From Polyangium sp. 15x6 (GTDB lineage Bacteria > Myxococcota_A > Polyangia > Polyangiales > Polyangiaceae), in assembly GCF_029960785.1 (NCBI RefSeq), contig NZ_JASBQE010000096.1, positions 1 through 45,366 on the forward strand: a DNA stretch of 45,366 bases. The letters run 5' to 3'. Shown here in pieces: positions 23,542 through 26,933 of this stretch; position 1 is the first letter of the stretch; each line of letters opens with the position of its first letter. The position numbers and the translations under genes are program-made. The notes below the pieces were generated by a model that was given only the letters and a program-made list of their open reading frames with translations, did no database searches and was not told the DNA's origin.

Positions 23542-23709
23542 GCCAGGCGTCCATCGCAAGCCCCGGGCCAGCAAGGACGATCGCGATTTCCCCGCATTTC
23601 GCAGGGTGACGCGCTTTATTCCCGGTCAAAATGTCGGCCCGCCCGAAGCGCGCTCTGACAAGCTGGCAAGGAGCGGGTCTCCGTGGCGGACGATACGCTC
23701 AGCGTGACG

Positions 23710-26232
<2,523 letters not shown>

Positions 26233-26330
26233 GGACGTGCTCCTCTCGATTTTCCCTGTGAAACGCGCGGCGCCGTTATACCCAGGCGCGAGCGTCGGGG
26301 GAAGCTCCGGATGCGTAGGATGCGAGGAAC

Positions 26331-26358
26331 GGAAAAACCGGCGGGGAAAAACCGGCGG
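26331..26358. repeat. Perfect 14-bp tandem duplication
   Basis: The unit GGAAAAACCGGCGG occurs twice back to back (26331-26344 and 26345-26358). On the minus strand it lies 7 bp past the rhodanese stop and gives two C/G-rich blocks, each followed by a T5 run. A weak CCGG/CCGG pairing before the second T run could act as a poor terminator, but the stem is too short to claim one. Confidence 0.8.
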
Positions 26359-26364
26359 GCGGGT

Positions 26365-26808
26365 TCAGGAGGGCTCGACGGGCTTGCCGGCCTTCTTCCA
26401 GCCGGCGAGGCCGGCGGGCATGATGAAGACCTTCTTGTAACCGAGCTTCAGGGCGCCGACCGCGCCCTCATGGCAAGCCGTTCAATGATCGTTTGCGCAA
26501 TAAAAGACGAGCGTGGCCTCCTTGTCCGCGGGGAGATCCTCGGCTCGCACGTTCTCGTGATCGACCCATTTCGCGCCGGGCAGGTGGCCCTTGTCGAAGG
26601 TCGATCGCGCGTTGTTGTCGATGACGTGGAAGGCGAGCTTGCCCTCCTTCGCCTCCTTCATCTTGGCGTCGACCTCGTCGACCGTGAGCCGACCAAATCC
26701 TTCGGCCTCGGCGCCGTGCTCGCCCGTGGATCCGCCGGGCTTCTTGCACCCGGGCAGGGCGAGGAGCATGGCGGCCGCGAGTGCGACCAACATGTGCCTG
26801 TGCTTCAT
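26365..26808 (-). CDS. Rhodanese-like lipoprotein with in-frame UGA, candidate selenoprotein
   Basis: Read through one in-frame TGA (26484-26482, codon 109), the gene encodes 147 residues. A lipoprotein signal peptide (LALPGC, Cys 21) is followed by a rhodanese domain: LTVDEVDAKM, FHVIDNNARSTFDKGHLPGAKWVDHENV, then LVFYC with the usual active Cys at 104, ANDH, the TGA, and TAC with Cys 112. So the TGA falls where UxxC or CxxC would stand. The 38 codons after it are normal: 35 of 38 end in G or C, and they carry the expected rhodanese end (GYKKVFIMPAGLAGWKKAGKPVE). A GAAGGG site precedes the ATG. A hairpin of SECIS type lies 20 nt after the TGA. Alternatives are a recent nonsense mutation or a sequencing error. 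Selenocysteine is the best reading but not proven. Confidence 0.72.
26450..26468 (-). promoter_or_regulatory. Candidate bacterial SECIS hairpin
   Basis: On the minus strand the bases after the in-frame TGA form a perfect 7-bp stem, AGGGCGC (26468-26462) with GCGCCCT (26456-26450), around the loop GGTCG (26461-26457). The loop starts 20 nt after the TGA. A lower 5-bp helix GGCTT/AAGCT (one G-U pair), with a 6/1-nt internal loop, can extend it. Known bacterial SECIS elements, such as that of E. coli fdhF, have a short stem with a GGUC-type loop at a similar distance after UGA, bound by SelB. A GC-rich stem can arise by chance here. Confidence 0.6.
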
Positions 26809-26933
26809 GATCCCTTCTTGCTTGGTTGGGCGCGCTGGAACGCGCGACTCGAAGCGTAAGGGAAATCGAGGCGCCGGGCATCGGCGCCTCGATCGAAGGG
26901 CAGGATCGTGTCGGTGTCGGTGGGCCGGCTTTG

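Follow-up and report, generated by a model that had tools for sequence, protein, structure and literature searches.

A probable selenocysteine-containing rhodanese with a C-x4-U active-site loop in Polyangium sp. 15x6 and other Myxococcota

The stretch of DNA analysed here in full (45,366 nucleotides, referred to as the window) is contig 271 of the 13.4-Mb genome of Polyangium sp. 15x6; among named relatives in the GTDB contig collection, y55x31 and 6x1 of the same genus are the nearest. On the minus strand it contains an open reading frame (ORF) of 147 amino acids, counting a candidate selenocysteine (Sec) at residue 109, which starts with an ATG at 26808-26806, has codons down to 26368 and finishes with a TGA stop at 26367-26365 (Table 1). 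The frame has a single internal TGA, flanked by LVFYCANDH and TACHEG. Under the standard code the product has 108 residues. The 38 codons downstream of the TGA end in G or C in 35 cases, compared with 24/37 and 18/37 in the remaining frames of the strand. Both the internal TGA and the G/C-ending codons that follow it had been described in a first-pass annotation of this DNA, and re-reading of the sequence agreed with that description. The Pfam rhodanese profile PF00581 matches across the TGA with 46.8-48 bits against a gathering cut-off of 22.2. On sequence grounds the in-frame TGA is more than a chance event, as PF00581 runs through it and relatives have retained the TGA together with the protein sequence downstream of it.

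Table 1. Positions of the predicted features of the rhodanese gene in the window
Feature	Position	Strand	Basis
Rhodanese-domain exported protein, probably Sec-containing	26365..26808	-	PF00581 above cut-off; orthologues with the same TGA
Putative signal peptide with lipobox-like LPGC (Cys21)	26746..26808	-	Sequence, by eye
Catalytic rhodanese Cys104 codon (FYC)	26497..26499	-	Present in 24/24 homologues; end of model strand 99-103
UGA codon, candidate Sec109	26482..26484	-	Cys opposite it in homologues
Bacterial SECIS-like stem-loop	26450..26468	-	bSECIS rules; folding; silent double changes in relatives

The gene upstream encodes a VWA-domain protein (Pfam), and the downstream frame at 23710-26232 appears by eye to be serine/threonine kinase-like. 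Between the VWA and rhodanese genes, at 26865-26893, there is a perfect 12-bp inverted repeat with a TTT end on the minus strand; it is weakly terminator-like, and the rhodanese gene may therefore have its own promoter. A 1058-aa open frame on the plus strand (23683-26859) lies antisense to the kinase-like and rhodanese genes and is probably a GC-rich shadow frame.

The product shows two hallmarks of the rhodanese superfamily, namely a PF00581 match above the gathering cut-off and a catalytic cysteine (Cys104) at the end of the strand preceding the active-site loop. The structure model has a pLDDT of ~98 over the rhodanese domain, and PDB rhodaneses were matched by the model and by the profile. 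Model and profile were built on 53 alignment rows, one of which (L060) is out of frame, and our counts use the other 52. In the model the candidate Sec109 is located in the active-site loop, directly N-terminal to helix 111-121. Cys104 and a Cys or Sec at 109 are each present in 24/24 homologues from a protein search, and both are found in 52/52 in-frame rows of the larger alignment, partly by construction of the search. Position 112 is occupied in these 52 rows by Cys (24), Ser (27) or Ala (1). When the distinct Sec and Cys proteins are counted apart, Cys112 occurs in 21/23 of the former and 9/35 of the latter. Two Sec proteins, L062 (the same gene as L014) and L092, have Ser at 112, and two Sec members read UxxS (UTAS and UNSS). 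The first-pass annotation had named the protein after a UxxC motif, which is indeed present in the window; because residue 112 varies and is often Ser, the conserved core is instead Cys104-x4-Sec/Cys109 (C-x4-U).

The same annotation had called the protein an exported lipoprotein. By eye the N-terminus of the window protein does contain LPGC, which we take to be lipobox-like, and Cys is found at position 21 in 17/52 in-frame rows, where the alignment is poor. The Sec relatives L076, L077, L079 and L084 show A-x-A-like signal ends by eye, and because of these we use the broader term ‘exported’.

In order to follow the TGA through relatives we used three samples. A protein search over 59 genomes gave some match to the rhodanese in 47, and 24 homologues were read from it, weaker matches without a locus being left out. 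The TGA is at the same site in seven genomes, including our own (G000, G001, G002, G004, G008, G015 and G043), and the remaining 17/17 homologues have Cys there. Of 377 Myxococcota genomes, 13 contained the DNA pattern FYCxNxxU and none the reversed control pattern; all 13 matches proved to be in-frame rhodaneses. The two genome samples overlap and combine to 14 TGA-form genomes. The GTDB contig collection yielded 51 loci, 14 with TGA at the site (two other Polyangium strains, L072 and L073, and 12 MAG loci) and 37 with Cys, 35 of them by script and two by eye. These last two, L096 and L122, which the motif script did not pick up, have Cys at +5 and are in neither the tree nor the bSECIS rule test described below; L122 is a distant, generic rhodanese. 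The Cys share among these loci is inflated, since one of the two peptide patterns used demands Cys at both loop positions; the 24 loci from the protein search are free of this bias. Wherever a stop occupies the site in these loci (14 cases) it is TGA, never TAA or TAG. In L037, from the 59-genome search, a TGA occurs elsewhere, not at the Sec109 site. Homologues retain related C-terminal sequence beyond the site. Hence the Cys/Sec exchange suggested by the first-pass annotation is borne out in every non-TGA homologue examined, as is the relatedness of homologues after the TGA, which it had named as a check.

For 58 distinct proteins, 23 with Sec and 35 with Cys, a tree was built in which the site was masked in the Sec rows alone and L060 entered in its proper frame; it requires four Cys/Sec changes, at least three of which are forced by well supported branches, and the bootstrap range is also four. 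Repeated single-site swapping with Cys is to be expected for Sec but not for decay.

Clustering of the ORFs that flank the gene in the window and in 49 named loci, together with Pfam searches on ten neighbours, found no neighbour common to the family; the ORF caller used is crude, and in the window it chose a long antisense frame over the kinase-like gene. The largest cluster comprised nine loci at varied distances and is the directly downstream gene in L072 and L092, and in L072 its gene is the counterpart of the kinase-like gene of the window. The second cluster comprised six loci (one Sec and five Cys forms) and is by eye an OPT-like transporter. This OPT-like oligopeptide transporter is upstream of the rhodanese in L078, L082 and L083, with a GNAT-like gene (by eye) between the two, and nearby on the other strand in L086, L089 and L094. 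No operon partner of the rhodanese gene is apparent, and because no neighbour is common to the family the mechanism proposed below has no operon support.

Starting 20 nt after the UGA there is a predicted stem-loop with a 7-bp stem (arms 26462-26468 and 26450-26456) and the apical loop GGUCG (26457-26461). The bSECIS rules, as given in the excerpted text of a 2026 review (PMC13188914), are a loop of 3-9 nt, a stem of 4-16 bp, a G in the first two loop positions, a spacing of 16-37 nt and an MFE of <= -7.5. They are satisfied by 21/21 distinct TGA copies compared with 4/35 Cys copies, where the energy is that of the gap-free hairpin alone and one TGA copy is right at the -7.5 limit. Over this region the TGA copies fold with an average energy of -12.4 (synonymous-codon null, -9.9) and the Cys copies with -8.0 (null, -8.0); individually, 2/21 TGA copies and 2/35 Cys copies beat the null at 0.05. 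The single-sequence fold of the window stem-loop has a z of -1.25, and 20 of 200 shuffled sequences fold equally well. Such single-sequence tests are mostly non-significant because GC-rich code folds well regardless, and an Rfam search of the window found nothing.

Manual sorting placed the 21 TGA copies in four stem registers of 9, 5, 5 and 2 copies, and the stem sequence varies between lineages. Within one register, two stem pairs show silent double changes from C-G to T-A in which both members are third codon positions (in 2/5 and 1/5 sequences, respectively), and in another register an outer pair near the base of the stem is broken in 2/9 sequences. The assignment as a SECIS-like element is based on the rule test and on the comparison of TGA with Cys copies, the single-sequence fold and the codon null being too weak alone.

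We then turned to the Sec-decoding machinery. The genome of Polyangium sp. 15x6 contains a tRNA-Sec (71.3 bits, anticodon TCA) beside selB, and its selB (289.5 bits), selD (391.6 bits) and selA (490.4 bits) all score above cut-off. The full set of selA, selB, selC (tRNA-Sec) and selD that goes with a bacterial selenoprotein gene, and that the first-pass annotation had proposed to look for, is therefore present. Among the 59 genomes selB is above cut-off in 24, including all seven with the TGA form (Fisher 0.001, a value that kinship makes optimistic). A tRNA-Sec of at least 59 bits was found in 14/14 TGA-form genomes versus 5/17 Cys-form genomes, the latter being every genome with a non-TGA homologue read from the 59-genome search; here too kinship makes p-values optimistic, and the Cys-form count rises to 7/17 if any match above the gathering score is counted. 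Two genomes of the same genus, G003 and G005, have selB above cut-off and only weak rhodanese matches (E values of 5.7e-5 and 1.1e-4). Given that 5/17 Cys-form genomes have tRNA-Sec, and that selB occurs in G003 and G005, where the rhodanese has no close relative, the machinery appears to serve other genes as well; in the genus of G003 and G005 other selenoproteins presumably keep Sec decoding. Formate dehydrogenase gave ten TIGR01591 matches in our own genome, none with an internal stop, and these therefore do not explain the retention of Sec decoding. G000:C27 and C230 (L129 and L130), which match formate dehydrogenase alpha best, have no internal stop and by this test are not Sec forms.

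The gene, the Cys/Sec exchange, the SECIS-like element, the decoding machinery and the predicted fold were all found by computation, and collectively they lead us to regard the rhodanese gene as very probably a functional selenoprotein gene whose UGA is read as Sec109. Were the TGA instead a true stop in a truncated or decaying gene, as the 108-residue product of the standard code would have it, the last 38 codons would be a relic and over a third of the domain would be missing from the short product, because the TGA lies within the active-site loop. Set against this are the conservation of the TGA and the downstream protein over Myxococcota, the Cys at the site in the other homologues examined and the bSECIS rules, which all TGA copies and few Cys copies follow; we consider a true stop highly improbable. 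Less credible still is a sequencing or assembly error for TGC or TGT. Our reading is of the assembly sequence, and the same TGA recurs in the two other Polyangium assemblies (L072 and L073) and in the 12 MAG loci.

For the chemistry, substrate and reductant of the Cys104/Sec109 protein we infer the following scheme. SelB and tRNA-Sec would decode the in-frame UGA as Sec, guided by the downstream stem-loop, to give an exported single-domain rhodanese with the active-site loop Cys104-x4-Sec109, in which the catalytic Cys is retained and Sec stands at +5. In the periplasm Cys104 would accept sulfane sulfur, selenium or an oxidising equivalent. Attack by Sec109 on the Cys104 adduct would then give a Cys104-S-Se-Sec109 selenenylsulfide and set the reduced product free. 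A thiol donor of the periplasm, along a DsbD/CcdA-like path, would return the Cys104/Sec109 pair to its reduced state. An exported redox or persulfide-handling enzyme working through such a selenenylsulfide is our tentative proposal for the function, with a chance that we judge a little short of even. Its main support comes from the selenoprotein TsoB, in which a UxxxxU motif of the same spacing is joined to a possible electron supplier, the second part of TsoB being taken to be DsbD/CcdA-like. In our own genome G000:C231 resembles this second part (287 bits, below cut-off). Somewhat more tentatively, the C-x4-U proteins may represent a Myxococcota-centred class of selenoenzymes, in which a rhodanese has become a redox enzyme, acting as a periplasmic thiol/selenol oxidoreductase that is a stand-alone cousin of TsoB and has undergone several Cys/Sec gains or losses among the genomes of myxobacteria.

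Two other functions have to be weighed against the selenenylsulfide cycle. Sec109 could chiefly tune sulfur or selenium transfer by Cys104, as a perselenide or persulfide relay lacking that cycle; the assignment of the protein to the rhodaneses by family and predicted fold would suit this, as would the catalytic Cys in 24/24 homologues, but the equally invariant Cys/Sec109 (24/24) suits a redox pair, and the related TsoB is described in the excerpted source as rhodanese/DsbD fusion-like. We therefore regard transfer tuning as rather unlikely. A role as a peroxidase or another detoxifying selenoenzyme of the periplasm, with Sec109 attacking and Cys104 or Cys112 resolving, would account for the prevalence of Cys112 among the Sec proteins; the Ser112 of the Sec proteins L062 and L092 does not fit a resolving Cys112, and the NCBIfam and Pfam profiles gave no peroxidase family match, which makes this function improbable.

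The selenenylsulfide reading aside, the rhodanese selenoproteins probably gain a sixth subfamily here, one whose Sec occupies a defined second position in the active-site loop. The protein also draws attention to selenoproteins of myxobacteria; among the literature matches listed, no paper dealt with these. Because the standard code ends the protein at residue 108, automatic gene prediction will probably overlook it or cut it short. Furthermore, since Sec and Cys versions both occur naturally, what Sec contributes to a rhodanese can be tested directly.

Among known proteins, the single-domain rhodaneses YgaP and GlpE match the window protein in sequence and fold; to our knowledge, neither has Cys or Sec at loop position +5. 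The rhodanese loop reads CxxGxR, and hence a UxxG motif would fit Sec at the catalytic Cys. The table excerpted from PMC13188914 gives five forms of rhodanese selenoproteins (UxxS, UxxG, CxU, UxxG and UxxxxU), and C-x4-U is absent from its five motif rows. Forms 1, 2 and 4 (UxxS, UxxG and UxxG; PF00581) share with the window protein a rhodanese domain and a single Sec, and differ from it in motif. Form 1 (WP_010941598.1) could have Sec at the same position, as judged from its motif row in that excerpt, since two members of our family read UxxS. Form 3, the LYCAU family (NF041203, CxU), is likewise a rhodanese whose motif places Cys and Sec near each other, but by that motif its Sec is at +2 from the Cys rather than at +5. 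Membership of the window protein in LYCAU was rejected (31.6 bits against a cut-off of 115, and a C-x4-U spacing).

No NCBIfam model reached its cut-off with the window protein. The best match was TsoB (NF045694, form 5 in the excerpt of PMC13188914), at 42.8 bits against a cut-off of 805. As described in that excerpt and in NCBIfam, TsoB has, like the window protein, a rhodanese domain and two reactive chalcogens with x4 spacing; however, it is DsbD fusion-like, with a model of 572 positions and two Sec, whereas the window protein is a stand-alone protein with one Sec and keeps the catalytic Cys. Going by the spacing, the second U of TsoB would correspond to Sec109. We rejected the window protein as a member of TsoB on its score, its 147 aa and its one internal TGA. 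The window protein aligns to positions 79-158 of the TsoB profile; no TsoB above cut-off was found in the 377 Myxococcota genomes, and among the matches listed those to the profile in Myxococcota start at position 126 or later, mostly behind the rhodanese part.

Among the matches listed from the full-text literature on rhodanese or myxobacterial selenoproteins a C-x4-U rhodanese family is not described, and the excerpts of reviews that deal with rhodaneses do not name one. The papers drawn on in excerpt are PMC13188914, PMC9312934, PMC1088965, PMC2398784, PMC1794560, PMC5029168, PMC5877670 and PMC8318568; PMC12013277 gave no match to the term rhodanese. In the excerpted text of the 2026 review, differing Sec positions or motifs define the subfamilies of rhodanese selenoproteins. 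By that principle the C-x4-U rhodanese would be a new subfamily.
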